From positions 124,001 to 188,000 of the forward strand of contig NZ_WTKP01000001.1 of NCBI RefSeq assembly GCF_009793355.1: a stretch of DNA of 64,000 nt, in the 5' to 3' direction. How positions within the stretch are numbered: the first letter of the stretch is position 1; the number at the start of each line of letters is the position of its first letter. Positions 17,223-30,100 of this stretch are shown here, in pieces. A program made the position numbers and the translations under genes. This DNA is from Vreelandella zhuhanensis. GTDB lineage: Bacteria; Pseudomonadota; Gammaproteobacteria; Pseudomonadales; Halomonadaceae. A model generated the notes under the pieces. That model was not told the DNA's origin, did no database searches, and was given only the letters and a program-made list of their open reading frames with translations.

Positions 17223-17813
17223 ATGATGCCAATATCTCCTTCCCTCTGGTTATCCGCTCTGAGCGTTTCACTGCTTGCCTTGCCCTTGAATGCTGCAGGA
17301 GCGACGTTAACATTGCCCAGCGATGCTCGGATTGGCGTTGAAGTCATCAATACTCTGAGCCTGAGTGCATCTACGCCCGAACACAACGAAATATTGCTGC
17401 ATCCTGCGGAAGTTGCCGGAACCACACACACACTTCCAGATTATTGTGTGCTAGTGGCAAATGCACGCTTTGAAAACCAGCGGGTACGTATCACCACGCA
17501 AGACGTCACCTGCATCAAAGCGACATCCAACGAGAGTGAGGTTTTCTCGGGAGAAATCAGTGCCGCTGCCTATGCAGAAGATGGAAGTTATGGTCTGCCC
17601 TGTGGCGATAATGGCTGTACGTTAAAACCCGGCCAAGGCTTTCTCCTGCGCTTATCCGAGGATGTAGCAATCGAGGCACAAGAAAACGTTTCCGCCAAAA
17701 TCAATCAAGAACGGCGCCAAGCTGATGGTACCGGTGTGGCTAACCCGATTCCCGCCGACAGCCCCTCTCCTGAAACAGCTATTGAAGCGCTCGGTGATCC
17801 AGACGCCGAATAA
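17223..17813 (+). CDS. Exported hypothetical protein
   Basis: From the ATG at 17223 the protein has 196 residues and a signal peptide (hydrophobic stretch about 7-22, cleavage likely after LNAAG). The mature part has four cysteines (in DYCVLV, VTCIKA, LPCGDNGC), a YGLPCGDNG segment, and a Pro/Glu-rich tail from about 170. The cysteine spacing and the order of a Cys-Val-Leu strand, a RVRI strand, a second Cys and a final GEDG-like turn faintly recall the periplasmic domain of TraB/VirB10 proteins, but no membrane anchor or conjugation genes are present. I do not recognise a function. It is convergent with srkA. Confidence 0.7.
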   Translation: MMPISPSLWLSALSVSLLALPLNAAGATLTLPSDARIGVEVINTLSLSASTPEHNEILLHPAEVAGTTHTLPDYCVLVANARFENQRVRITTQDVTCIKATSNESEVFSGEISAAAYAEDGSYGLPCGDNGCTLKPGQGFLLRLSEDVAIEAQENVSAKINQERRQADGTGVANPIPADSPSPETAIEALGDPDAE

Positions 17814-17826
17814 CCGCTAAGCCTCC

Positions 17827-18813
17827 TCAAGCCAACCACGGCTGGTGTCGATCGAGCACCAGCCGCTGCTGTTCCAATTGGCGAATATGCTGATCCCAAT
17901 AGCCACTGTCAGCCAACCAAGGAAACGCTGCCGGAAAAGCCGGGTCAGACCAGCGTGAAACCAGCCAAGCACTGTGACGAATCAAGCGGAGACTGCGCAG
18001 GGGCTCGATCAGCGCCAATTGGTCATACGGAAATTCACCAGCCTGTTCATATCCTTCTGCCATTTCACTCAATTGGGCGCGCCACTCTGCCGGGTTACCG
18101 ATAGGCAACAACATCCATATATCCTGTATGGCTGGCCCCATCAGGCAATCATCGAAATCCACCAAGGTAAAATCTTCGCCCCGTCCGAGAATATTGCCCA
18201 AGTGGCAATCGCCATGACAGCGAATCAATTGGTCGGCAGGCCAGGCAATATTCTTCAGCACATTATGTAAATTATTGGTAATGGTCTCATAGGCACGGCG
18301 CTGATGACGCCCCAACCAGTTACTGGCAAGTACCCGCTGCTGAGCCTCGATAACCTGGCCGTCCAAGTCGAGTACCGGCCGGTGCTGAAAACGTTTGCGT
18401 CGGGAGACCTGGTGCAAGCTCCCCAAGAGCTCCCCCAACGCATAGAGATGAGCAGGGTTATCCAATTCAGGCGCCTGGCCAACTTTCTGAGCGAACAAGG
18501 CAAATCGAAACGTTCGAAAATGATGCAAGGTGCGGCCTTGCTCATCTTTCCAGGGAGCTGCTACCGAAACCCCTGCCGCTGCCAGCTCCAGCAGAAAATC
18601 ATGCTCTTCCTGGATACAGGCATCGCTCCAGCGCTGGGGACGGTAGAACTTGATCACCCAGCCCTGTCCTTTTTCATCACGAAACAACAACACACGATTT
18701 TCGTAACTGTTCAGTGCGAACGGCTCTCTTTCCGGCCATATACCCACTGACTCGGCAGCGGCCATGACATACTCGGGCGAAAGCTCGCCAAAAGGATGAA
18801 TTACTTGAGACAT
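17827..18813 (-). CDS. srkA: Stress response kinase A (YihE/RdoA family)
   Basis: SrkA is a Ser/Thr protein kinase of the aminoglycoside-phosphotransferase fold linked to protection against stress-induced death in E. coli. The 328-residue protein matches the family size. LNSYENRVLLF and WVIKFYRP (ATP-binding lysine) lie in the N-lobe; the catalytic loop is CHGDCHLGNIL (near 205) and the metal motif VDFDDCLMGP follows (near 225). The dsbA gene that follows srkA in E. coli is absent here. Confidence 0.92.
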   Translation of the reverse strand: MSQVIHPFGELSPEYVMAAAESVGIWPEREPFALNSYENRVLLFRDEKGQGWVIKFYRPQRWSDACIQEEHDFLLELAAAGVSVAAPWKDEQGRTLHHFRTFRFALFAQKVGQAPELDNPAHLYALGELLGSLHQVSRRKRFQHRPVLDLDGQVIEAQQRVLASNWLGRHQRRAYETITNNLHNVLKNIAWPADQLIRCHGDCHLGNILGRGEDFTLVDFDDCLMGPAIQDIWMLLPIGNPAEWRAQLSEMAEGYEQAGEFPYDQLALIEPLRSLRLIRHSAWLVSRWSDPAFPAAFPWLADSGYWDQHIRQLEQQRLVLDRHQPWLA

Positions 18814-18851
18814 TATCCGTCAGCCTATCCTGTGCTAATTGCTCTATCGTA

Positions 18852-19637
18852 TCAGGCCTGCTGCAAGGGTGTTCGAGCAATTGCCCACACATCGACTCGC
18901 TCAGCACCGGCTTGCTTGGCAGCGGCTGCCAGCGCATTGACCGTGGCGCCGGTCGTCATCACGTCATCGACAATCGTTACATGCAACGGAAGCGGCGCCT
19001 CAAGATAAAATGCCCCCTGCAAATTCTTGAAACGTTGCCGCCGATTGAAGGCACGCTGACTCTGGGTGCTGTGCAGGCGCTCAGCATGGATCAAAGGCAA
19101 GCGGTACTCACCGGCTAATTTCTCTGTCAACCATACCGCTTGGTTGAAGCCTCGCTCGCGTGCCCGGCTCATGTGCAAGGGAACAGGCAACAAGGCATCG
19201 GGCAAGCCTCCCTCCTTTCGACCACTCAAGAAAAGCTCAAGGAGCAAATTTCCCGCACGCGGAGACGCCTGGAACTTGAAGGCCTTGAGCAAGGCACCCA
19301 CAGCACCCTGATACAACAAGGGCACATCGGCAGTGTCGAATTGTGGTGCTGATAGCAGACAATGCCCGCAGCGGCGTCGAAAACTCGATGTGCCAACGCT
19401 TATATTTGGCCCTAGGGGTTCGGCACATTGGTAGCAAGCGGTGTGATTCCAGGCCAATCCTCGATAGCACGCCTGACACCAAGGCGATCCTGCTGCGGTT
19501 GCCGTCAAGCAAAATTCACAATAGCCCGGCAAGCTGCGTCGTAGCCAACCCTGAGCCGCTTCTTGCCATCGCTGAGCCTTCAACCACTCTTGAATAGCTG
19601 CTGCGCGGCTCCGGCATCCTGCCAGTGTCTGGTGCAT
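18852..19637 (-). CDS. comF: ComF-family phosphoribosyltransferase-like protein
   Basis: ComF proteins help natural transformation in some bacteria; the domain is of the type I phosphoribosyltransferase fold. The 261-residue protein has an N-terminal double zinc ribbon with cysteine pairs CEFC, CQAC, CYQC and CGHC between about 40 and 95, and the PRPP-binding loop VDDVMTTGAT (near residue 225). Several starts are possible; the longest is given. In many gammaproteobacteria comF sits beside bioB, but here a tRNA gene and the island junction are next to it. Confidence 0.9.
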   Translation of the reverse strand: MHQTLAGCRSRAAAIQEWLKAQRWQEAAQGWLRRSLPGYCEFCLTATAAGSPWCQACYRGLAWNHTACYQCAEPLGPNISVGTSSFRRRCGHCLLSAPQFDTADVPLLYQGAVGALLKAFKFQASPRAGNLLLELFLSGRKEGGLPDALLPVPLHMSRARERGFNQAVWLTEKLAGEYRLPLIHAERLHSTQSQRAFNRRQRFKNLQGAFYLEAPLPLHVTIVDDVMTTGATVNALAAAAKQAGAERVDVWAIARTPLQQA

Positions 19638-19797: not shown

Positions 19798-19882
19798 GCG
19801 GATGTGGTGGAATTGGTAGACACGCTAGATTTAGGTTCTAGTGCCGTAAGGCGTGGGAGTTCGAGTCTCCCCATCCGCACCA
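19798..19882 (+). tRNA. tRNA-Leu (anticodon UAG)
   Basis: The 85-base sequence starts GCGGATG and ends CATCCGC A CCA, giving a perfect seven-pair acceptor stem with an encoded CCA. The anticodon stem CTAGA/TCTAG encloses the loop TTTAGGT, so the anticodon is UAG. The long variable arm is typical of leucine tRNAs, and the T arm contains GTTCGAGTC. It forms the left border of the accessory island, whose integrase begins 166 bases downstream. Its 3' part is the likely attachment sequence, left intact by insertion. Confidence 0.97.
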
Positions 19883-20047
19883 AATCGAAAAACCCCGCCT
19901 CACCAGAGCTACTCCAAGCCTCTATAAACCCCGATAAATCCAGCACTTTCTTTAACCACAGCTAACCTGAATTACCCCCACCTACCGCTTGCTTTATGTA
20001 CACCACGATGTACCCTTTAGTTCGTAGGGTACACAGGGTACACAGAA

Positions 20048-21283
20048 ATGAAGCGCTCACAGATAAAGCGGCGGCCTCTGGCCGACACCGTACTGGCCTC
20101 TCTTGAGCCGGAAAGCGTCGACTACCGCGAACGCGATGGCGGCGGGCTGTATTTCCGTGTGAAAAGCAACGGCAGCAAGTCTTGGAATCTGCGCTACAAG
20201 CGCCTTGATGGTCGCTGGGCATGGCTCGGGCTGGGCAGCTTTCCCTTCGTATCGGGCAAGGCGGCGCGCAAGAAGGCTGACGATCTGCGTAAACTGGCCG
20301 CCGACGGCATTGATCTCCAGGTGTACAAGCAAGGGGTACAAGGCAAGCCGACGTTCAAGGCGTCAGCCGAGGAATGGTATCAGCGCAAACTGGACGCTGG
20401 GCGATCCCTGGGCACCACGCGACAGATGCGCCTTTATCTCGACAATGACATCCTGCCCGCTATCGGAAAAAAAGCGCTCGACCAGATAACCCGCGCCGAT
20501 TGCGCCGCGATCCAAAAGGCGATCGAGGACCGTGACGCGCATAGCGTTGCCAAGAAAGTGCGGTCATGGATTGGTCAGACGTTTTCGCTGGCCGTCGCTC
20601 AGGGAAAGTGCGACCTGAATCCTGCGTCAGAGCTTAGGCATATTGCTGCGCAGGCCCCCAAAACAACCCAATACCCTCATCTTCTAGAGCCTGAGCTGCC
20701 CGCCTTTCTTGCTGCTCTGAAAAAGTCCCCCAGCAGGGCGATTACTCAGGCGGCGGTCTGGCTGGTGCTGCGCACTGCCTCGCGCCCCGGCATGGTACGG
20801 TTATCAGAGTGGGCGGAGTTCGATCTGGATGCCGCTCTCTGGTCAATACCGGGAGTCAGAATGAAAACGCGGCACGACCATCTGGTACCGCTATCGAGCC
20901 AAAGCGTCAGTGCGTTGCGCGATCTTCATGAGATTACCGGGCGCAGCCGATGGACCTTTCCTGGCAGCGGCCCCAAAAACCCCACGCTCAGCGAGAACAC
21001 GATCAACAAGGCACTGACCTTGGTTGGCTACAAGAACAAGCTGGTTGGTCACGGTTCGCGGCATACGGCATCGACGCTGTTGCGCGAACACGGCTGGAAA
21101 AAAGATTATGTCGAGGCTCAGCTAGCGCATAAAGAGCCCGGCATGTCGGGCGTCTATAACAAAGCGCAGTACATCGAGGGGCGTCAGGTCATGATGCAGT
21201 GGTACTGCGACTATCTTGATGCGCTGGAATGCGGGATAGGCAGGGATGAGCAGCAGGCATTCAAAGAGCGAGTGATGCCCTAA
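20048..21283 (+). CDS. Tyrosine site-specific integrase (P4-like, tRNA-associated)
   Basis: The enzyme would integrate or excise the island at the tRNA-Leu 3' end. The 411-residue protein has the DUF4102 N-terminal arm-binding domain (GGLYFRVKSNGSKSW near residue 35), a core-binding SAM-like domain (about 100-185) and the catalytic domain. Catalytic residues are Arg246 (SRPGMVR), His335 and Arg338 (HGSRH), the QLAHKEP box, and the nucleophile Tyr370 (GVYNKAQY). It appears intact. It is not an IntI: I see no IntI-type additional patch between the Arg and HxxR boxes, and it lies about 2.6 kb from the first cassette. Confidence 0.93.
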   Translation: MKRSQIKRRPLADTVLASLEPESVDYRERDGGGLYFRVKSNGSKSWNLRYKRLDGRWAWLGLGSFPFVSGKAARKKADDLRKLAADGIDLQVYKQGVQGKPTFKASAEEWYQRKLDAGRSLGTTRQMRLYLDNDILPAIGKKALDQITRADCAAIQKAIEDRDAHSVAKKVRSWIGQTFSLAVAQGKCDLNPASELRHIAAQAPKTTQYPHLLEPELPAFLAALKKSPSRAITQAAVWLVLRTASRPGMVRLSEWAEFDLDAALWSIPGVRMKTRHDHLVPLSSQSVSALRDLHEITGRSRWTFPGSGPKNPTLSENTINKALTLVGYKNKLVGHGSRHTASTLLREHGWKKDYVEAQLAHKEPGMSGVYNKAQYIEGRQVMMQWYCDYLDALECGIGRDEQQAFKERVMP

Positions 21284-21675
21284 CTCTTGCCGGTTTTCAA
21301 GACCTATACGTTAAGCAATAAGCCACTATAAATAACTGAATTTAAATGATAATCACGCTGGGCGCAGTGTGTACCGAAACACCGTTATTCTCAATATTAG
21401 GCAGCTAGACACATTAGATTGCAGGCCTCTGGCACAATCTGGACACAGTGCTATTTGTGCGCGCCAGTTAGCCCTGCCAACAGTCGGCGGATTTTGAAGC
21501 CTTCGCTTATCTACTCATCGCGGCACATTGCATTGATCGTGCTAGGTTTTCACCTCATAAATTGTTTGTTTTGGCTCGCAAACGCTCAACGAGGTTGACG
21601 CAATGTGGACACTTTTCACACCCTATCCGATCTCATGCTATCCTCTGAGACTACGTTTACAGCTGGATACCAAGG
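21284..21675. other. 392-base non-coding stretch after the integrase
   Basis: No convincing gene, RNA or promoter is visible. The stretch is AT-richer than the core genome. I looked for a copy of the tRNA 3' end here and found none. Confidence 0.4.
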
Positions 21676-22182
21676 ATGATGTTCAAGCTAATCGCTTTCA
21701 TGCTTTTGTTTACTTTTTCCCCCTTCGCTTCTGCACAAATTCACAAATGTGTCATTGCCGGGGTTACCACCTTCCAGGACAGCCCTTGTCCATCTTCTGC
21801 TCAAGTGTATAAACCGCGTAATTCCAGCGGCAGTACTTTCTCGACCTACTCTGCACCGGATCGGGTAATTACTCGACCTTCGTCACCTTCCGCACGTTCT
21901 CCCCAGGTTGTCGACTCTAACGTTCGAAATACCTCTAAACCGTCTGAAACCACTATAGAACGCCGAAACAGAGAAACCAGCTCACGCGCTCGAGGCATCC
22001 TTACGCCGGGTATGTCCCGTAGCAAAGCAATCATTACATTTGGTCTACCTGACAGTACTTCCGCTTTTACACGTAACGGCCAAAGCTGTGAGCGCTTAAC
22101 CTGGTACAACCCTCGCTTCCATGAGGGCACTCATCGTGCCACTGTATGCGATGGGGAAGTCACACAGTTTTCTAGCTATTAG
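21676..22182 (+). CDS. Exported DUF4124-like protein
   Basis: The 168-residue protein has a signal peptide (hydrophobic about 4-20, cleavage after ASA) followed by IHKCV..VTTFQDSPCP, which fits the DUF4124 pattern of a short exported domain with two cysteines. A Ser/Pro/Arg-rich linker (about 45-105) leads to a C-terminal module with GMSRSKAIITFGLPDS and two more cysteines, similar to the start of BamE/SmpA-type domains. Adjacent ATG codons at 21676 and 21679 are both possible starts. Function is unknown. It is followed after 57 bases by the first copy of the 95-bp repeat. Confidence 0.7.
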   Translation: MMFKLIAFMLLFTFSPFASAQIHKCVIAGVTTFQDSPCPSSAQVYKPRNSSGSTFSTYSAPDRVITRPSSPSARSPQVVDSNVRNTSKPSETTIERRNRETSSRARGILTPGMSRSKAIITFGLPDSTSAFTRNGQSCERLTWYNPRFHEGTHRATVCDGEVTQFSSY

Positions 22183-22239
22183 CGTTTCTTGTTTCTTTTG
22201 CGTTTTGGCGAATCTGGATCGCCCGCGTTGATGTTCCAG

Positions 22240-22334
22240 GGCCGAGCTTGCTACCGGCCTTTACTTCAAAATCAACCGCTTGTAACGTCACACTGATTAC
22301 ATATACAGAACAGATTTCATACCCTCTGCGACCA
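22240..22334. repeat. 95-bp direct repeat, copy A
   Basis: This segment matches 23166-23260 in 89 of 95 positions without gaps. It lies in the 410-base non-coding stretch between the DUF4124-like gene and the HEPN-like gene. Copies A and B each begin about 50-57 bases after a stop codon. I see no inverse-core/core boxes, so it is not an attC. The rest of the gap (22335-22592) shows nothing I can name. Confidence 0.85.
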
Positions 22335-22592
22335 AGCGGCAATTTAAGAGACTGGCTAAGGGATAGGTTCCGCGTTCTTAGCGCCCTTGCAACCCCATTT
22401 TGCCGCGCTTCGCCCAGTATCCTGTTGATTTTAAATAAATACCTGCCTTATTCAGCACCAGCCGATACGGCTAATTCGCTCTATAAATATCAATAAGTTA
22501 CAGCCTAGTTTTCAGTTGGCAGGTGGCATCGATTCGTGTCGGTGCCACACTGCTGGTAGAAAAATTCATATCAAGCACGCCAGGGTGACAAG

Positions 22593-23114
22593 ATGGAGCG
22601 TTTTTTTACGTCAATCGAAAAAGCAATCGAAGCACAAGACTGGTACGGAGCGCTTTCGACCGCTCTTACGATACCTGATATTGCAGGCAAACTAGAGAAC
22701 CCTGAACTCGGAGTGGGCGCAAGGTACAAAGGATGGTACCGAAACTGGCTGCAAGATAAATATACGGGCTCTGGCCCTGCTGGAAACCATATATTCTTGA
22801 GTGATGAAGATTGTTATGGCTTGAGATGCAGCTATCTTCACGCTGGTGGTGGAGAGCTTGAGCGTAAGGCGAAACATACTCTTGAAAGATTCCATTTTAT
22901 CCAACCCCCCAAATGGGGACGAGCTCATCTAAATCAGCTCAACAATGTTCTTCAGCTTCAAGTAGATGAATTCTGCAATGACATGGTCGAAGCGGGTAGA
23001 CGCTGGTTTCATTGGACTCAAACAGAGCGGCCGGATGTTGTGCAGCGCATGGATGCTCTACTGATAATCCATAACGCCGATAACGGTATTCCCGGCTTGA
23101 TAAACTTCGGGTAA
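22593..23114 (+). CDS. Hypothetical protein with HEPN-like Rx4H motif
   Basis: The 173-residue, mostly helical, soluble protein contains DEDCYGLRCSYLHAGG, in which Arg78 and His83 form the Rx4H motif typical of HEPN ribonucleases and HEPN-like domains. Conserved-looking flanks are DWYGAL near the start and HFIQPP and NNVLQLQVDEFC in the second half. I know of similar stand-alone proteins in accessory regions but of no experimentally defined role. No nucleotidyltransferase (MNT) partner is adjacent. The start is the first ATG; a GGGTGAC stretch lies before it. A short terminator hairpin follows. Confidence 0.65.
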   Translation: MERFFTSIEKAIEAQDWYGALSTALTIPDIAGKLENPELGVGARYKGWYRNWLQDKYTGSGPAGNHIFLSDEDCYGLRCSYLHAGGGELERKAKHTLERFHFIQPPKWGRAHLNQLNNVLQLQVDEFCNDMVEAGRRWFHWTQTERPDVVQRMDALLIIHNADNGIPGLINFG

Positions 23115-23134
23115 TTAAAACCTGTTTGTCGCGG

Positions 23135-23155
23135 CGGATTTTGAATCCGTTTTTT
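23135..23155 (+). terminator. Terminator of the HEPN-like gene
   Basis: CGGATT, a three-base loop and AATCCG are followed by TTTTTT, 20 bases after the stop codon. The stem is only six pairs. Confidence 0.55.
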
Positions 23156-23165
23156 AGTAATATAA

Positions 23166-23260
23166 GGCCGCGCTTGCTACGGGCCTTTGCTTCAAAATCA
23201 ACCGCTTGCAACGTCACACTGATTACATACACAGCACAGATTTCATACCCTCTGCGACCA
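23166..23260. repeat. 95-bp direct repeat, copy B
   Basis: Second copy of the repeat at 22240, with six mismatches. It lies just after the terminator hairpin and ends 86 bases before the DUF1654 gene, so it could overlap that gene's promoter. In one frame both copies encode nearly the same peptide (SKSTACNVTLITYT then ISYPLRP); two of the four differences inside that frame are silent. Confidence 0.85.
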
Positions 23261-23346
23261 AAACGCGACCAAGCACCTTATCCCCATGGAAATTCCTTCG
23301 CTCACTACTGTATAAATGCACACACAGCAACCAACCAGGAAACTCC

Positions 23347-23592
23347 ATGGCTAAACCTACCCAGCCCACCAGCTACGAACGCCTGGGGCAGCGCATCCAG
23401 CGCGTGATCAACTCGCCCAAGGCACAATCTCAGCGGTGCGCGGAGATCTCCAAGGCACCAGATGAAAGCAATGATGATTGGCGCCAGCTACTGGAAGAGT
23501 TGGGCACGCTCGGCCACGTGACGATGATCCCGCTCGATGAATCCGGCGAGCACATTCGCCTACGCTGGAACCCCGAGGAGTCGATGGCATGA
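23347..23592 (+). CDS. DUF1654-like protein
   Basis: From the ATG at 23347, preceded by AGGAA, the protein has 81 residues. TSYERLGQRIQRVINSPKAQ, then DDWRQLLEEL and a closing IRLRWN strand resemble DUF1654, a short family I know from Pseudomonas genomic islands and phage-like regions. The open frame reaches back to 23206 through repeat copy B, but that part has no ribosome binding site. Function is unknown. Confidence 0.65.
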   Translation: MAKPTQPTSYERLGQRIQRVINSPKAQSQRCAEISKAPDESNDDWRQLLEELGTLGHVTMIPLDESGEHIRLRWNPEESMA

Positions 23593-23637
23593 GTATGCAC
23601 AAGTGCTACTCTATTTTCTTTGACACAGGAGAAACCC

Positions 23638-23859
23638 ATGCAAGATATAAGTCGCCTTGAAGTTGGCATGACCACAAAGATTGGCACGGATCAGGTGGAG
23701 GGTCCTGATGTGGGCAGAGAATATGTACGGGCGCTCGATTCCAATACCTGGCTCCCGTTTACCGAAGGTGCGGCTGAGGATCGTCCACTTGTTGTTCGCA
23801 TTGATAATATCGATGGCGATGTGTGCCACTGCACGGTCACAAGAAAGCCAAGTTTATAA
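23638..23859 (+). CDS. Small hypothetical protein
   Basis: The frame from ATG 23638 encodes 73 residues and has a good AGGAGA eight bases upstream. The product is acidic and soluble, with no motif I recognise; it ends VCHCTVTRKPSL. It follows the DUF1654 gene by 45 bases and may share its transcript. Its stop codon is four bases before the core-site box that opens the cassette array at 23863, yet I find no attC attributable to this gene. Confidence 0.5.
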   Translation: MQDISRLEVGMTTKIGTDQVEGPDVGREYVRALDSNTWLPFTEGAAEDRPLVVRIDNIDGDVCHCTVTRKPSL

Positions 23860-23903
23860 GTAGTTATGCACAAATAAGCGCGTATAAATAGCTCATAACC
23901 CCC

Positions 23904-24134
23904 ATGCTTTTTATTCCTCTACATGACGCGAAAACTTATGTAGAGGCACTTCGTTTTAACTTTAAGATGGCTCTGCCCCTTTCCATCAGCTTCATAGACT
24001 TGATTCTCCAATTATTGGCTATGGCAATACCTGATTTTTATACAGCATTATTGAAAATGACAAACCGCGCACGCTCGCGAATTTTGGATATGCTGCCAAA
24101 TTTGGCTTTGCTCCCAAGGGAATCAATGAGGTAG
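23904..24134 (+). CDS. Small hypothetical protein, cassette 0
   Basis: This 76-residue frame fills the first predicted cassette (23864-24215). It contains a hydrophobic segment about residues 25-45 and a basic tail, and could be a small membrane protein. There is no clear ribosome binding site, so coding status is uncertain. It is listed because its position between GTTATGC (23863) and the putative attC0 (24152-24221) is that of a cassette gene. Confidence 0.35.
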   Translation: MLFIPLHDAKTYVEALRFNFKMALPLSISFIDLILQLLAMAIPDFYTALLKMTNRARSRILDMLPNLALLPRESMR

Positions 24135-24151
24135 ATTTGATCGATTCGGCT

Positions 24152-24221
24152 GCATAACCTCAATAAACGTGCCGGCATTTTCATTAAGGTTATGCTGTTG
24201 GCCGTATAATCACTGTTAGGC
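24152..24221 (+). other. attC0, putative cassette recombination site
   Basis: The site starts with GCATAAC (24152-24158) and ends with the core site GTTAGGC (24215-24221). GCATAAC is the exact reverse complement of GTTATGC at 23863-23869, the box opening this cassette. Inside lies an inverted repeat, GCATAACCT/AGGTTATGC (24152-24195). The central pairing toward GTTAGGC is weaker than in the later sites, so this is the least certain of the internal attC sites. Confidence 0.5.
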
Positions 24222-24233
24222 AAGGAGAGTACA

Positions 24234-25013
24234 TTGTTTTTTCGGGCAATCGACAAAGCTCTTGAGAAGCCTTCGCCAGGTTCAATACCATTAAGTGGAC
24301 CGAGAGCTCTCGAGAATGATTTTTACTCGGTTCATCTTGAGGACAGCACCGGGAAAGATCAGGTATGGCTCAAAGGAAAGGCCGATCAAGGGTATGAAGC
24401 GCTTGTAAGAGCGGATAATGATTCAGGCAATGACAAAATTCTTACCCAAAGGGAAATCGAAAACACTGGATATACCCTGAGAATTGAACACTACTACAAA
24501 GGGTACCAGTTCAATTACTCAAGCCCCCTGAAATTCCTATTGGCTTATTATTTTCGGTGGCATCGTTGGGTAATTTTTCGAGATAGGAATTCTCAGAAAA
24601 GATTTAACCGACAGCCGCTGATCAGAATGGAGCGTATGAATCTCCTCCAATATCTTGTTGAACGTAGTATCCAAAAACCCAGAGAAAAATTTGACCCATT
24701 GTTTCTTGGTATGCAGCTATACACAAGGAGGTGGTTTTTTCACCCTGGCAAAGATGAACAGAAGGAGCATCTAAAGCTGTTGTTGGAGTCCTTTGCCGAG
24801 TCTGGTGAGTTAAAGCGGGATAATGGTGGATATGTATTGTCAGGCAAAGCCCTCGAAACGCTGTCCAATCATGAGCTGGAAAAACAGCAACATCGGGATA
24901 ACCTTGCGACTGCCAAAGTCGGCAATAATCTGACTTGGGCTATTGTAGTCGTCGGGCTCCTTGGTATTGGTGCTCAGTCAGTTATGTGGTGGCTTGAAAA
25001 TGGTGCACAGTAG
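24234..25013 (+). CDS. Hypothetical protein with C-terminal membrane helix, cassette 1
   Basis: The protein has 259 residues and starts with TTG, supported by AAGGAG seven bases upstream and 13 bases inside the cassette. The first 230 residues look cytoplasmic, with charged and aromatic-rich stretches (YYFRWHRW, YTRRWFFHPG). A single hydrophobic helix at about 233-252 makes it a likely tail-anchored membrane protein. I recognise no domain. Codon use is AT-richer than in the core genes. Its stop codon lies one base before the attC1 inverse core. Confidence 0.75.
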   Translation: MFFRAIDKALEKPSPGSIPLSGPRALENDFYSVHLEDSTGKDQVWLKGKADQGYEALVRADNDSGNDKILTQREIENTGYTLRIEHYYKGYQFNYSSPLKFLLAYYFRWHRWVIFRDRNSQKRFNRQPLIRMERMNLLQYLVERSIQKPREKFDPLFLGMQLYTRRWFFHPGKDEQKEHLKLLLESFAESGELKRDNGGYVLSGKALETLSNHELEKQQHRDNLATAKVGNNLTWAIVVVGLLGIGAQSVMWWLENGAQ

Positions 25014-25014
25014 T

Positions 25015-25098
25015 GCCTAACCAACGCAGGCACGGCGACGCCCTTTCCATTGCGCCTTCGGCTCCATTTCAAGGGCGCGCATGCTGCAAGCGTTATAT
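25015..25098 (+). other. attC1, integron cassette recombination site
   Basis: The 84-base site runs from GCCTAAC (25015-25021) to GTTATAT (25092-25098). GCCTAAC is the exact reverse complement of GTTAGGC at 24215, which opens the same cassette. The interior is imperfectly palindromic around CGCCTTCGGCTCC, with CGCCCTT pairing AAGGGCG, and CTGCAAGCGTTA forms the usual 3' end. Confidence 0.85.
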
Positions 25099-25124
25099 CA
25101 TTTTTGCATTTCGAGGACTTTTGG

Positions 25125-25472
25125 GTGTATAAATTATTAATATTGTTGTTTTTTCCGATTATCGTTGGTGGCTGTGCGACGGTTGATCCTGCTTTCTATG
25201 AGGTAAATGCTGGTGACAGTAAGTCCGAGGTAATCAGTAAGCTGGGAAATCCAGAAAATCGTCAATTTAATGGTAAAAATGAGGCATTTCAGTACTGTAC
25301 GACTGGAACAAGTTTTGGGGTTAGCACATATAATGTTATCCGGTTTTTCGATGGCGAAGTAACTGGCGCTAATTCGTATAATTTGTCGCGTGCCGGCTCG
25401 TGCTCTGGTCACTTTCAAACACTGAAGTGGGAAGATGCACCTGATACAACCATCGAGCTTCGAGACCGATAA
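25125..25472 (+). CDS. Small lipoprotein with BamE/SmpA-like domain, cassette 2
   Basis: I start this at GTG 25125, eight bases after GAGGA and 32 bases inside the cassette; the frame opens earlier at 25050, but that part lies within attC1. The 115-residue product begins with a lipoprotein signal ending VGGC, so it should be lipidated. The mature part has VNAGDSKSEVISKLGNPEN, the hallmark of SmpA/OmlA (BamE-like) domains, and two cysteines. The true BamE works in outer-membrane protein assembly; this cassette copy is probably a divergent relative of unknown role. Confidence 0.75.
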   Translation: MYKLLILLFFPIIVGGCATVDPAFYEVNAGDSKSEVISKLGNPENRQFNGKNEAFQYCTTGTSFGVSTYNVIRFFDGEVTGANSYNLSRAGSCSGHFQTLKWEDAPDTTIELRDR

Positions 25473-25528
25473 TATAACCAATCGCACCAGTACGCGGCCT
25501 GTGGCCGCCGCTGTGCTCCGCGTTAGCG
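25472..25528 (+). other. attC2, integron cassette recombination site
   Basis: The 57-base site runs from ATATAAC (25472-25478) to GTTAGCG (25522-25528). ATATAAC is the exact reverse complement of GTTATAT at 25092. GCGGCC/GGCCGC, CAG/CTG and GCAC/GTGC pair symmetrically, a textbook short attC fold. Its first base is the last base of the cassette 2 stop codon. Confidence 0.88.
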
Positions 25529-25541
25529 TGCAGGAGAAAAG

Positions 25542-26255
25542 ATGGAAGATCTGCCGGTGCATACCCGAATTATCGAGGAAAACAGAGAAGGCGGACTCCT
25601 GCTCTGCGGCATCAACCACGGCTACAGTAAACATGACGAGCGACAGGATGCCACGGGAATAGACCGATCGGACTCGCACAAGTCGTTCTTCTCTGATAGT
25701 GAGGTCAACGACTACCCCTTCAGAAACAAAATTGTTTCTTGGTTCGATCTTTGGGGTTACGAATTGGCGCGGAGCAAACGACTAGCGGGTCGGTTCGAGC
25801 GATCGATCATCCAAACCAACTGGCTACAGACCTGTTCAAACAATGTGCGTGGCGTGAACACTCAGCGTGCATGCATCGAGGAGCACAAGTCATTCCTAGA
25901 GACGTGTTCCGCCTTGAAACCTGGCATCATATTTTTCTTCGGCCAGGAACCGCTGTGGGCGTTTACCTCGCCGGCGCTCAGTCCGAAGGTGGAGACAATC
26001 TTCGGTGCCCGAACAGGTGAGATCCAATGGCTTCAGAAAACCATTTACTACAACGGAAAGCGCTGCACGCGATTCCGTTTCGGATTTCAGCAGTATGAAC
26101 GGCTTGCTGTTGTCGCTCTACCGCACCCAACGGGTGCCCGAGGCATAGCAAGCGATTACATTGCCGCTTTCAAACCTGAGATGTCGAAAATCATTGATGT
26201 TTGGTGGGCGAAGCACGAAGAGACACTAACAAGGCGGTCGAGAGCGACCGGGTAA
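25542..26255 (+). CDS. Uracil-DNA-glycosylase-superfamily-like protein, cassette 3
   Basis: The 237-residue soluble protein starts 20 bases inside the cassette, five bases after AGGAG. GLLLCGINHGYS (18-29), a TNWLQTC segment, LKPGIIFFFGQEP and VALPHPTG (His195) occur in the order seen in uracil-DNA-glycosylase folds: a GxxPG-like loop, an Asn-containing strand, a LKP..I..LG strand and a terminal HP(S/T) loop. The catalytic residues cannot be assigned with certainty, so enzymatic activity is inference. The last 32 bases of the gene lie inside attC3, a common cassette arrangement. Confidence 0.7.
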   Translation: MEDLPVHTRIIEENREGGLLLCGINHGYSKHDERQDATGIDRSDSHKSFFSDSEVNDYPFRNKIVSWFDLWGYELARSKRLAGRFERSIIQTNWLQTCSNNVRGVNTQRACIEEHKSFLETCSALKPGIIFFFGQEPLWAFTSPALSPKVETIFGARTGEIQWLQKTIYYNGKRCTRFRFGFQQYERLAVVALPHPTGARGIASDYIAAFKPEMSKIIDVWWAKHEETLTRRSRATG

Positions 26256-26287
26256 AGCGCTCGCGCGCCTCACCGATGGCGTTAAGT
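26224..26287 (+). other. attC3, integron cassette recombination site
   Basis: The 64-base site runs from CACTAAC (26224-26230) to GTTAAGT (26281-26287). The expected inverse core for this cassette is CGCTAAC (from GTTAGCG at 25522), so six of seven positions match. AACAAGGCG at the left and GGCGTTAAG at the right are typical flanks, with CG-rich arms between them. Confidence 0.8.
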
Positions 26288-26291
26288 TTTT

Positions 26292-26753
26292 ATGGCGAGA
26301 ATTTCAGAGAAGAACGCACGTTTCAGGTCGAAAGAGACCATTTGTAATGATTTGGCTCGAGTGCTTAGCGCAGACCTGAGCTACGGAACCAAGTTCGCTG
26401 TTGTCTCCGAAATCACTTGGGTTTGGTCTGAATTTGACGGCAAGCACAAAGGCTGTAAATATTGGTCCAGTAAGGCATTGCAGTCAGGACTTCCGTACAG
26501 GGAGTTAGTTCACGAACATATTGTTCCAAAGAAGATTTTGATCAACTCTATTATCAACGATATCGAAAACTCGCCGCAGAAGATCTATGGCTTCCTTCAG
26601 CGTTTTTGCGTCGGGGTCGTTGTAACTAGGGATGAGGATTTTCTCCTGAACGCTGCTGGTTTGAGATCCAAGATGCCGGAAAATTGGGATGGTAGAGATC
26701 CTTGGGCCCGGTACAGCGAAGTCGAGATAAGAGTTGAGAAATTAGATACTTAA
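26292..26753 (+). CDS. Hypothetical protein with HEHIVP motif, cassette 4
   Basis: The 153-residue soluble protein starts only 10 bases inside the cassette and has no ribosome binding site (TTTTT precedes ATG). It carries LVHEHIVPKKIL (His74-Pro79), then VVVTRDEDFLLNAAGLRSKMP and WDGRDPWARY. The HEH..P motif resembles the first part of HNH-type nuclease motifs, but a full HNH set is not apparent. I recall similar cassette proteins without known function. The stop codon is within the attC4 inverse core. Confidence 0.7.
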   Translation: MARISEKNARFRSKETICNDLARVLSADLSYGTKFAVVSEITWVWSEFDGKHKGCKYWSSKALQSGLPYRELVHEHIVPKKILINSIINDIENSPQKIYGFLQRFCVGVVVTRDEDFLLNAAGLRSKMPENWDGRDPWARYSEVEIRVEKLDT

Positions 26754-26831
26754 AAAGGAAAATCACGGCAACAGCCTTTCCGTTTCGGCTTCGCCTACGC
26801 TCCAAAGCTGCCCGTGTTGGCAGCGTATGAG
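26748..26831 (+). other. attC4, decayed integron cassette recombination site
   Basis: The 84-base site starts with ACTTAAA (expected ACTTAAC from GTTAAGT at 26281, six of seven) and ends with GTATGAG where a GTTRRRY core site should be. CACGG/CCGTG, CAGC/GCTG and TTT/AAA form a long stem around a TTCGGCTTCGCC centre. Its length and several segments (CACGGC, CCTTTCC, GCTCCA) match attC1. The damaged right box suggests the array ends here. Confidence 0.7.
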
Positions 26832-26923
26832 CCAATCAACATCGAGAGTATGAATGGACGACAGAGTTAAAAAAATAGATACGCCAGAAAATAAATACTC
26901 ATGCATATCTTTGTGATCACTGT

Positions 26924-27211
26924 CTATTCTTTTGGCTCGTCTGCTTCCTTCTTGTCTTTACGGGCTTGCTGCATTTGTTCATCAAGCCTGAGTGATTTCC
27001 GATCAGAAGGGCAGATCATCACAACGCGCTCCTCATCAACGATACTCAAGCGAGGTTTTATAGGAAGTTTAAGTAATTGCCGTGCATTTTCTTCTTCATC
27101 CATTAAGAGAAGAAGATTGTCATATAGACGCTTACGCACCCAGTGGGGCATTTCTTGAGGCTTATGATGGAGACGTACGTGGCTAAACAAACCTCTAAAA
27201 AATTTTTTCAT
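26924..27211 (-). CDS. Hypothetical protein, second gene of a membrane-protein pair
   Basis: The 95-residue, strongly charged protein starts after AAGGAAGG, which overlaps the end of the upstream gene; the two are 11 bases apart and surely co-transcribed. It has HWVRKRLYDNLLLLMDEEENA near the middle, VVMICPSDRKSL, and a lysine- and glutamate-rich tail. It is soluble with no motif I recognise. It lies opposite to the cassette array and immediately beyond it. Confidence 0.6.
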   Translation of the reverse strand: MKKFFRGLFSHVRLHHKPQEMPHWVRKRLYDNLLLLMDEEENARQLLKLPIKPRLSIVDEERVVMICPSDRKSLRLDEQMQQARKDKKEADEPKE

Positions 27212-27222
27212 AGCATCCTTCC

Positions 27223-27738
27223 TTACATCTGAAAAGGTAAAAAGGCATAAGAAATAACAATTATAATGAGAGAAAATAAAATTAGATGTAGCCCATGGGT
27301 ACGGTCTCTAGCAGCCTGTTCATTTGCGGCAAAATACCAGCGATAGACTATATCATAGCTACCCGACATCATTTCCTGCAGTTGGCCAGCTACAGCCTCA
27401 TCACTATTTTCACTGTATCTAAGTATTTTTTCTGCGCTTACAAGCTCTTCCAGATCGGGGGGATCTACGTATATAAAGCTTCTCTCAAGCCTGACTATAA
27501 GTATTGCTCCAGAGAGCAAAAGGACAATGCTTATAAAAAACATAATAGAAATTGCCATGTTTGCCGGGTAAGACCAATTTTCTAAATTTAAATGTGTGGC
27601 TAACGTCGACAAATTAAACACAGTGAAAGCCATCGCGGATACTGGTGTGGCCACGCTACTTCGAATCTGCTCGCGACGATCACGCTGCGACTGATAAAGG
27701 TCACGCATTACCTCAAAGCGTAAACGTATTGGATCCAC
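27223..27738 (-). CDS. Hypothetical three-helix membrane protein
   Basis: I start this at GTG 27738, six bases after GGAGA, giving 171 residues; an ATG six codons upstream (27756) lacks a ribosome binding site. Counted from that ATG, membrane helices lie at about 36-55, 66-89 and 156-174, with a charged cytoplasmic stretch (95-150) between the second and third. A helical basic N-terminus (RFEVMRDLYQSQRDRREQ) precedes the first helix. The layout loosely recalls SLATT-type sensor/effector membrane proteins, but this is only topological. It forms an operon with the 95-residue gene downstream. Confidence 0.6.
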   Translation of the reverse strand: MDPIRLRFEVMRDLYQSQRDRREQIRSSVATPVSAMAFTVFNLSTLATHLNLENWSYPANMAISIMFFISIVLLLSGAILIVRLERSFIYVDPPDLEELVSAEKILRYSENSDEAVAGQLQEMMSGSYDIVYRWYFAANEQAARDRTHGLHLILFSLIIIVISYAFLPFQM

Positions 27739-27816
27739 ACTTATTCTCCGGTTCATAACCAGCTAATTAGTAAACAGTAGGAACGCATCGCTATTTGTTC
27801 AAGCCACCATTACCAT

Positions 27817-27974
27817 GGCCTGTTGCGGCAGTACCTACCCGAGGATACGGACCTCTCCGTCTACAGGCAGGCAGAGCTCGACGATTTTGCCGACTCACTG
27901 AAATACGACCACGCAAGACACTGGACTGGCAAACGCCGCTGAAAGTCTACGCCGAGATGCTCAAGAAAACTCGC
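27817..27974 (+). pseudogene. IS30-family transposase, C-terminal remnant with frameshift
   Basis: One frame from 27817 reads GLLRQYLPEDTDLSVYRQAE followed by LDDFADSLK. Then the reading shifts frame near 27900 and continues RPRKTLDWQTPLKVYAEML. Together these are the C-terminal hallmark of IS30-family transposases. The rest of the gene and the terminal inverted repeats are not visible, so this is a scar near the right edge of the island. It sits in the 493-base stretch 27757-28249 that otherwise holds nothing I can identify. Confidence 0.75.
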
Positions 27975-28249
27975 CGGTCCGAGCACCCTTCAATAGCGTT
28001 GCACCTGGAACTTGAAACCGCCAATCTTTTTGGCGTATCACACATCAGATCATGCAACACTGGGTACTGGAGGAAATGACTCTCTTCCAGAGCAAAGAAC
28101 CTGTCATTCTCGAGCTTAGGGTCATTGCCATTTATGGATCGGAAGGCTCCGCGGCAAGTAAAAAATTGGATTTACGGTATTGAAACGCAACAGCTTAATT
28201 GAGACCGTTCACTGACGGAGAGCCGGTCGCTCATGCAACGAGACGTTCA

Positions 28250-29230
28250 ATGAAGAAGATATTCAGTGCTTGGCTATGTGGAATTTTCAGCTCCATGGCT
28301 CAAGCAGAACCTGTCAACGATAGCGACCTACCCGAATGGGCAGACCGCCATTTTTCTCCGGCCCATGCAAACGTGGCGCGATGGGTAGATACCACGTCAC
28401 GAAACATCGATAGATTTTTCGGCACCGATGATTATCAAGAAGTCGATAACGAGTCTTACCTGCGTATCGGTCAGGAAGTCGATTGGCGAGAGGGAGAAGG
28501 CACTGATGTCGAGCTCAACCTACGTTATCGACTTGATCTGCCTACCTCGGAAGAACGTCTCAGGCTGCTTATCGAAAGTGACCCGGAAGAAGCCCAGGGT
28601 ACCTTGGAAGAACAAGGTTCCGGACGCTTGGCCAGGGATCAGCGCGACCGGAGCACCTCCACCCTGGGCCTCGCCTGGCTAGAAAAGCGTGACAAACGCG
28701 AAACATGGAACAACCGTGTGGATAGCGGGGTGCGTTTGCGGTTACCTCTCGACCCTTACCTTCGTTTTACCAACGAACGGCTCTGGAGCTTGAATGAAAG
28801 CCCTTGGCAACTGGAATCCAACAATCGGCTTTCCTGGTTTAGCCACGATGGTTACTCGGCGAGAACTCGCTGGGACATGGGTCGGCCGCTCAGCAGCAGC
28901 CGGCACCTACGCTTTATCACCAATGTTCAGTGGCGCGAAGAGCACGACACCCTGGAATATAGCGAAACCGCCGAACTCAATCATCGAATCAATCGCCGCA
29001 GTGCGCTGCGTTACTCGGCAATTGCCTTGGGAGAAAGCGTTTCTGACCCGCGCTTGAACGATTACTATCTCCAGACCCGCTATCGTCGCAACCTGCACAA
29101 GGGCATTCTTTACGCCGACGTAATCCCTGAACTGCACTTTGCGCGTGAAGAGGATTACCACCCTCGCTGGGCCATGACACTGCGCCTGGAGATGTATTTT
29201 CACCGTGAATTTGACCGAGACTTTTTTTAA
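28250..29230 (+). CDS. Putative outer-membrane beta-barrel protein
   Basis: From ATG 28250 the protein has 326 residues with a signal peptide (MKKIFSAWLCGIFSSMAQA). The mature part is rich in alternating polar and aromatic strands with Arg/Glu turns, such as LNLRYRLDLP, RTRWDMG and TNVQWREEHDTLEY, and it ends in Phe (REFDRDFF), a typical outer-membrane sorting signal. I recognise no named family; an outer-membrane barrel is inferred. Only weak purines precede the start. It begins the core genome to the right of the island and is convergent with the SDR gene. Confidence 0.7.
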   Translation: MKKIFSAWLCGIFSSMAQAEPVNDSDLPEWADRHFSPAHANVARWVDTTSRNIDRFFGTDDYQEVDNESYLRIGQEVDWREGEGTDVELNLRYRLDLPTSEERLRLLIESDPEEAQGTLEEQGSGRLARDQRDRSTSTLGLAWLEKRDKRETWNNRVDSGVRLRLPLDPYLRFTNERLWSLNESPWQLESNNRLSWFSHDGYSARTRWDMGRPLSSSRHLRFITNVQWREEHDTLEYSETAELNHRINRRSALRYSAIALGESVSDPRLNDYYLQTRYRRNLHKGILYADVIPELHFAREEDYHPRWAMTLRLEMYFHREFDRDFF

Positions 29231-29264
29231 AACCCATTTTAAAGCGCCAACCACACCAACGATG

Positions 29265-29294
29265 TCAAAGTCGGCCTGGTCAGGCCGACTTTGA
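29265..29294. terminator. 30-base near-perfect palindrome between convergent genes
   Basis: TCAAAGTCGGCCTG and CAGGCCGACTTTGA are exact reverse complements around a two-base centre. It lies between two convergent genes and most likely terminates both, although no T tract follows on either side. Confidence 0.6.
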
Positions 29295-29338
29295 GCACTG
29301 CAGTTATCCTTTGATCCCAGATGTTAAGGCGCAAGGCA

Positions 29339-30100
29339 TTAAAGGCGCAAACCCCCATCGCATTCCAGAATACGGCCGGTGTAATAATCGTTTGTAAAAA
29401 TAAACTCCACGCTTTGTGCAATATTATCAGGCTCACCCAAGCGCTTCAGAGGCACACTCGAAGTAATTCTTTCCAGCATGTCCGATCGCATTGATTCGGT
29501 CATTTCCGTCTTCATGAAGCCAGGAGCCACACCTCCTACGCGGATACCATAGCGGGCCAGCTCGTTCGCCCAAGTGACGGTAAGCGACGAAATGCCGGCT
29601 TTGGCTGCGGCGTAATTGCTCTGGCCCATGTTCCCCACTTGGGAAATACTGGAAATATTGACGATTACCCCTTCATGGCCAGCTTCGATCATCTGGGTGG
29701 CGGCTTCACGACCACACAGAAAAACACCGGTCAGATTGATGTGGATAACCTGCTGCCAATCCTTCAACGACATCCGTTTGTCCACCTCACCTTCCTTGGC
29801 TTTAACCAACAAGGCGTCCTTAGTGATACCGGCATTGTTAACCAAGCCATGGATGGGTCCCATCTGCCTGGCAATATCGGCAAATCCTTGTATGACCGAA
29901 TCTTCATTGCTCACATCGATAACAAAGCTCTCGGCCTCGATACCTTCTTCACGTAATTGAGAAACGGCATTGTCCAGCGTCTCGGCACTGATATCCAACA
30001 GCGCCAACCTTGCCTTTTGCTTACCGAGTCGTCTCGCCATGGCGAGACCCAACCCTTGAGCACCACCGGTAATTGCAATGACTGTATTTGCCAATTCCAT
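29339..30100 (-). CDS. SDR-family oxidoreductase, FabG-like (3-oxoacyl / acetoacetyl-CoA reductase type)
   Basis: The 253-residue protein is a classical short-chain dehydrogenase. TGGAQGLG (11-18) binds the nucleotide, LVNNAG is present, and the catalytic Ser (NISSIS), Tyr and Lys (YAAAK) are intact. It ends with the ECDGGLRL tail typical of 3-oxoacyl reductases. The exact substrate (acyl-ACP in fatty-acid synthesis or acetoacetyl-CoA in polyhydroxybutyrate synthesis) cannot be read from sequence, and no acpP, fabD or phaC is nearby. AGGAG precedes the start. Confidence 0.88.
   Translation of the reverse strand: MELANTVIAITGGAQGLGLAMARRLGKQKARLALLDISAETLDNAVSQLREEGIEAESFVIDVSNEDSVIQGFADIARQMGPIHGLVNNAGITKDALLVKAKEGEVDKRMSLKDWQQVIHINLTGVFLCGREAATQMIEAGHEGVIVNISSISQVGNMGQSNYAAAKAGISSLTVTWANELARYGIRVGGVAPGFMKTEMTESMRSDMLERITSSVPLKRLGEPDNIAQSVEFIFTNDYYTGRILECDGGLRL

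Follow-up and report, generated by a model that had tools for sequence, protein, structure and literature searches.

The window analysed here is a 64,000-nucleotide stretch of Vreelandella zhuhanensis (contig C1, positions 124001–188000; genome of 3.25 Mb in 23 contigs, 99.49% complete), and it carries, inside an island at a tRNA-Leu gene, a short array of integron gene cassettes. Of the ComF relatives that carry a name, the best matches found are from Salinicola, at 47–48% identity, which points to a Halomonas-like, probably salt-loving bacterium. A preliminary description made from the letters alone had divided this array into five consecutive cassette units. The array is real, and it consists of an integron attachment site (attI) followed by four cassettes, not five, with a relic of the integron integrase gene (intI) on the other side of attI. 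The locus is therefore very probably an integron that has kept its attI and four cassettes without its integrase gene, since a genus-type attI and an intI relic lead the array, as is not expected of a cluster of attC sites alone. The parts of the array, in window coordinates and with models R1 to R3 as described below, are:

23939..23995, minus strand: intI relic (start of the gene), 19 decayed codons and then a stop, left of attI
24057..24222, plus strand: attI, 135 bits with R3; 28-row alignment; the same block lies directly upstream of intI in relatives
24216..25092, plus strand: cassette 1, open reading frame (ORF) 24234–25013 and attC 25015–25098 (R1, R2)
25093..25522, plus strand: cassette 2, ORF 25125–25472 and attC 25472–25528 (R2; weak with R1)
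25523..26281, plus strand: cassette 3, ORF 25542–26255 (237 aa) and attC 26224–26287 (R2; weak with R1)
26282..26825, plus strand: cassette 4, ORF 26292–26753 (153 aa) and attC 26748–26831 (R1, R2), right box decayed

Scanning for attC by motif and minimum-energy fold missed real sites of the window and picked chance ones, and covariance models were therefore used instead. R1 was trained on 14 attC sites from family genomes other than this one, all located on the array side of an integron integrase gene, and R2 on 101 R1 matches from 18 intI loci and four plasmid stretches; both were built without window sequence, and the four plasmid stretches of R2 were chosen through their resemblance to the window attC. 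At the 18 intI loci R1 gave 87 matches, every one on the strand predicted from the orientation of intI (training sites included); the other 14 of the 101 are from the plasmid stretches. In the window R1 and R2 alike find exactly four attC, which are the sole matches at E≤10 on either strand and all lie on the plus strand within one 1.8-kb run, 25015–26831. The first site scores 57.9 bits with R1 and 55.9 bits with R2 (R2 E 9e-13), and the last 32.2 bits (E 1e-5) and 34.3 bits (E 7.5e-7). The two short sites between them are weak with R1 (25472–25528, 16.0 bits, E 0.12; 26224–26287, 14.7 bits, E 0.25) and reach 26.3 bits (E 1.2e-4) and 27.4 bits (E 5.5e-5) with R2, so that all four R2 E-values are below 2e-4.

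The unit boundaries are exact or near-exact in three cases, and the right box of the last attC has decayed to GTATGAG. The box pairs GTTAGGC/GCCTAAC and GTTATAT/ATATAAC are exact, while GTTAGCG/CACTAAC and GTTAAGT/ACTTAAA are imperfect, just as the preliminary description had them, and the cassette genes do all run in the same direction. A blastn search of plasmids with window 23600–27000 returned 11 records, in each of which the best-matching place is an attC and not a gene: the first attC in nine (five of Providencia, and one each of Salinivibrio, Halomonas, Enterobacter and Marinobacter) and the last attC in two (Stutzerimonas and Marinobacter).

What had been taken for the first cassette, 23863–24221, is attI and its left flank. 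Its supposed attC (24152–24221) is in fact the hairpin of attI and is matched by neither R1 nor R2. The box that was to open the unit, GTTATGC at 23863, follows closely on a 79-aa ORF and is outside the attI homology. Relatives of this attI were found by a DNA search of window 23600–27000 in 275 genomes of the family. Window 24034–24231 (from 23977 in some genomes) matches DNA that adjoins intI, directly upstream, in genomes G216, G266, G242, G257, G261, G230 and G224, and in G208 the same block stands upstream of an intI fragment. Across 28 aligned copies the mean column identity is 81%, and the rows diverge past GTTA; because conservation stops there, as a crossover at G|TTA predicts, we identify the block as attI. 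The crossover in the window copy falls at the G of GTTA, 24215. This copy is 72–79% identical to the six aligned copies beside full-length intI (the intI of the G216 copy has an internal TAG); its closest copy, at 83%, is that of locus L151 in another species, and the three others in its own genome reach only 67–74%. The attI hairpin, 24148–24199, pairs in 87.4% of cells over the 28 rows, as compared with 31–37% when the partner is slid, and its covariation score is above all 500 shuffles. A TATAAT at 24205–24210 ends four bases before the crossover G, and TAGAAT occurs there in a few aligned rows.

The intI relic to the left has 10 of its 19 residues identical to the IntI of relatives, with a score of 44; the best of 50,000 random stretches of the window scored 21. 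A search of the whole genome gave no intI over the curated cut-off, which bears out the earlier observation that no integron integrase is visible; the best match there, 77 bits in a 298-aa frame, is probably a Xer recombinase. The locus thus has the attI and the attC-ended cassettes of a complete integron, and lacks the intI gene.

No function could be assigned convincingly to the cassette genes from Pfam and PADLOC searches. The ORF of cassette 1 (259 aa) has a C-terminal hydrophobic stretch and belongs to phrog_7611, of unknown function, and homologues of it occur in 28 plasmid records, at less than 60% identity in all. Homologues of the cassette 3 ORF occur in 22 plasmid records, again below 60% in all. 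The cassette 2 ORF (115 aa) looks lipoprotein-like by eye; neither it nor the cassette 4 ORF had a match in the plasmid search.

The surroundings of the array are given by three further features:

19798..19882, plus strand: tRNA-Leu, left edge of the island (ARAGORN, Rfam)
20048..21283, plus strand: tyrosine integrase of phage/P4 type, not IntI, 411 aa (Pfam Phage_integrase, Phage_int_M, Arm-DNA-bind_3; phrog_1 integrase)
19883..28200, no strand: island from tRNA-Leu to the next conserved chromosomal gene, about 8.3 kb, right edge approximate

The genus set comprises 82 genomes (81 besides the host), and the tRNA-Leu locus was compared in 15 of the 81. The same tRNA-Leu is present in all 15. 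From it to the next matching chromosomal DNA (window 28319–29340 onward) the distance here is about 8.5 kb, but only 0.3–1.6 kb in 14 of them; in the remaining one no match was found downstream. With an integrase gene next to the tRNA and an insertion that the relatives lack, this is a tRNA integrase island, as the preliminary description had proposed. R2 found nothing credible in those 15 loci and three Salinicola loci (one match, E 0.57). The relative most similar at the locus, G231 (90% over window 17501–18920), carries the tRNA-Leu and the segment 23600–23858; at its tRNA-Leu locus blastn matched neither attI nor any cassette nor the integrase of phage type, and R2 found no attC. That segment, a unit containing the 79-aa ORF, is found at 75–90% identity in many genomes of the family and ends just left of the intI relic. 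Further to the left, two copies of a 96-bp direct repeat (22240–22335 and 23166–23261), which are 926 bp apart, share 94% identity and have inverted arms close by, flank an ORF at 22593–23114 (phrog_18591, unknown function), and window 22180–23640 has no match among plasmids. On the right, window 26893–27105 and 27754–27820 match a contiguous stretch of contig C101 of G231, which is without 27105–27754; the right part of the island is therefore itself a mosaic.

The window attI is one of four full copies in its own genome, the others lying on contigs C7, C18 and C19, and each of the four is followed by attC on its own strand. These copies were found with R3, a sequence model of attI built from the 28 copies, 22 of which are at loci without a full intI; R3 also gave four antisense hairpin matches in this genome. 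Such matches inflate per-genome counts of attI copies, which we replaced by listed places. In the C18 copy the DNA flanking attI matches loci that carry intI in other species, and this copy too keeps a short relic of intI (12 of 17 residues). The same contig has two attC at 191116–191186 and 192897–192944 (L145) in a 16.5-kb stretch with no attI match, and by the R3 test this is a true attC-only cluster.

R3 matches attI in 78 of the 82 genomes of the genus, as compared with 19 that have intI over the curated cut-off and 24 at the looser threshold of E≤1e-40; in the family, 202 of 275 genomes have an attI match at E≤1e-6. Among the 150 attI matches listed, from 67 genomes, seven have an intI over the cut-off no more than about 2.5 kb away, and ten have an intI piece of any kind at such a distance. 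The figure of seven understates the share beside intI, because R3 was built mostly on copies at loci without a full intI and gives only 43–55 bits, below the listed matches, to a second attI subtype, which stands beside intI at L048, L049, L052 and L054; even so, no more than 19 intI pass the cut-off in the 82 genomes. Among the listed matches, 48 genomes have at least two attI, and an attI away from any intI piece occurs in 13 of the 19 genomes whose intI passes the cut-off.

At loci that were fetched and searched with R2 (L058, which carries intI and was not R2-searched, is excluded), 40 of 44 attI copies without a full intI have at least one attC within 3.5 kb downstream on the same strand, and none of the 44 has one on the opposite strand. 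In a first set of 18 intI-less loci, 13 retain 35–113 N-terminal residues of intI and five none, and tblastn found no intI piece at E≤0.01 at 13 further attI loci, a search that also missed the relics of the window and of C18. Two loci each hold three attI copies within 13–15 kb, each copy with its own cassettes (L199 at 4275, 11514 and 16605; L200 at 2465, 7093 and 16700) and with about 200 bp of upstream DNA in common; what look like ordinary chromosomal genes lie between the copies of L199. A search of plasmids and phages with one attI query gave no match, and a query of the second subtype matched one Halomonas plasmid; a vehicle for attI dispersal was therefore not found in these searches.

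Some orphan attI seem to have been in use. At one conserved locus, which we call locus C, six genomes including the present one (L147, L206, L207, L205, L204 and L201) share attI and its upstream flanks at 67–93% identity. In L147, L206 and L207 the match breaks off inside the final 30 bp of attI and starts again 2.2 to 5.1 kb further downstream; inside that gap there is no match of 120 bp or more, and each locus has two or three attC. L204 and L201 have the later part of the array in common, and no attC was detected within reach of their first attI copy. No intI match at E≤1e-40 coincides with a listed locus C place. A search for the empty site of locus C in nine loci left the attI insertion boundary unreadable: with R3, attI is decayed or truncated in L212, L213, L216 and L219, fuller in L217 and L218, and not found in L214, L215 and L220. 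At a shared orphan attI locus, G242 and G230, whose full intI are 1.4 and 0.5 Mb away, hold different inserts (L210, L211). One cassette, 99% identical over 530 bp and bounded by its GTT boxes, occurs behind attI copies of two species: in G194 it follows an orphan attI directly, and in G257 it takes the second place. A 1.84-kb segment common to the arrays of three genomes (L055, L164 and L207), sitting at the GTT box of an attC, had looked like a travelling cassette but was rejected as evidence, since it carries a 527-aa transposase-like ORF and inverted ends.

Conserved flanks and attI with different cassettes behind them suggest that IntI encoded elsewhere probably served orphan attI in trans, and one integrase may feed several dispersed docking sites. 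We therefore put forward, as a model whose chances we judge to be even, that the integron of this family is split into one intI locus, often lost, and several dispersed attI with arrays of their own that would be filled in trans. For the window, IntI would have inserted the cassettes one by one at the G|TTA crossover of attI, having come from an intact intI at the locus or been supplied from elsewhere, and intI would have been deleted afterwards. The phage-type integrase of the tRNA-Leu island may have carried the block. Cassette 1 is perhaps still transcribed, from a putative promoter to which the TATAAT four bases short of the crossover would belong, and the cassettes of this genome would be expected to stay frozen until an IntI arrives. 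On the wider reading, the window attI is one of many copies in the genus without an adjacent integrase, several of them at conserved loci with no intI trace seen.

A number of observations weigh against this account of the window and of its relatives. The folds of the four attC are little more stable than those of shuffles (z −1.1 to −1.5), and the canonical stem is not seen in the minimum-energy folds of the two short sites. In the attI hairpin, pairs changed on both sides number five, against 6.5 in shuffles. A −35 box was looked for at attI and none was recognised, and the region has no excess of promoter-like sites over shuffles. Even with three mismatches allowed, the final 20 bases of the tRNA match nothing but the tRNA itself, and no exact repeat of 12 or more stands at the right edge, so that transfer of the island by the phage-type integrase stays conjectural. 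Today no intI match at E≤1e-40 is present in the genomes of the locus C comparison, and the support for trans service of orphan attI is purely comparative.

The insignificant folds of single sites and the imperfect boxes of two units could also be taken to mean that the repeats arose by chance and that there is no integron, a reading that we hold to be next to impossible and already contradicted: the four matches drawn from both strands of 64 kb all fall on one strand in one short run, the plasmid matches are confined to attC, and attI and the intI relic are present. A plain cluster of attC sites lacking an integron integrase (CALIN), with five cassettes and no attI, would explain four attC without intI, but it is contradicted for the first unit, which is attI with an intI relic and whose claimed attC the models do not recognise; we consider it very unlikely indeed. 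Hardly more credible is that the attI block is a dispersed promoter-hairpin repeat unrelated to recombination and that the array was inserted beside it at attG, a kind of site that is neither attC nor attI and at which Loot et al. reportedly described cassette insertion in 2024. Many genomes do contain repeats of the block, for the most part not near intI, and its hairpin is unusual for attI; against this, relatives have the block immediately upstream of their intI, its conservation ends at GTTA, and 40 of the 44 copies that lack a full intI are followed by attC in the same orientation. The array joins attI, and not the non-attI site that insertion at attG implies.

A truncated integron thus remains the best description of the locus. 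The dispersed attI copies could be just the separate remains of many ordinary integrons, each once with its own intI, and no action in trans would then be needed. We regard this as a possibility to be taken seriously, if somewhat doubtful. It is favoured by the N-terminal residues of intI retained at most loci of the first set, and by the short relics of the window and C18, both of which tblastn at E≤0.01 overlooked. However, no piece of intI was seen at the remaining five loci of that set or at the 13 further loci, the listed locus C places coincide with no intI place, and G242 and G230, which have a full intI 0.5–1.4 Mb off, differ in their inserts at a shared orphan attI locus. Separate decay fits the ancestral locus, and fits less well the loci without an intI trace.

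If filling in trans is correct, a genome would offer cassettes several promoter-proximal positions simultaneously, and it would become directly testable how CALINs at conserved loci arose. If the integron is split as we suggest, many CALINs called by software would be attI-led satellite integrons and not decayed ones. Arrays led by attI without intI would go unnoticed because IntegronFinder detects attI only for class 1 integrons (PMC9024848); for the same reason it would probably label the window array a CALIN. The preliminary description had used that label as well, and it holds formally, there being at least two attC without a nearby intI; it fails in so far as it implies attC alone.

What the window shares with CALINs is an attC array without nearby intI; the label, however, ignores attI, and here attI leads the array with an intI relic beside it. 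The insertion of cassettes at attG is likewise an occurrence of cassettes away from the integron platform, whereas the site here is a copy of attI. Integrase loss or translocation is presented as the paradigm for the origin of CALINs in a review (PMC11389934), and a CALIN of Halomonas sulfidaeris appears in a table of PMC10295459. In the open-licence PubMed Central literature searched, no title or abstract listed concerned dispersed attI copies or the integrons of this family. The Delta-attI-type cassettes of class 1 and 2 mobile integrons, described in PMC12901181, also place attI sequence off its usual position, but there attI fragments replace attC inside mobile arrays, whereas in the present family the attI copies are about 160 bp long and stand at the head of separate arrays in the chromosome. 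Comparable too are the chromosomal integrons of Xanthomonas with inactivated or lost intI, for which the passages seen of PMC12444791 report CALINs away from ilvD at seven loci, taken as support for ancestral integron activity. An ancestral integron, repeated loss of intI and cassette clusters at conserved loci distant from intI are common to both systems; attI copies are not mentioned in those passages, whereas in the present family it is attI that heads the clusters.

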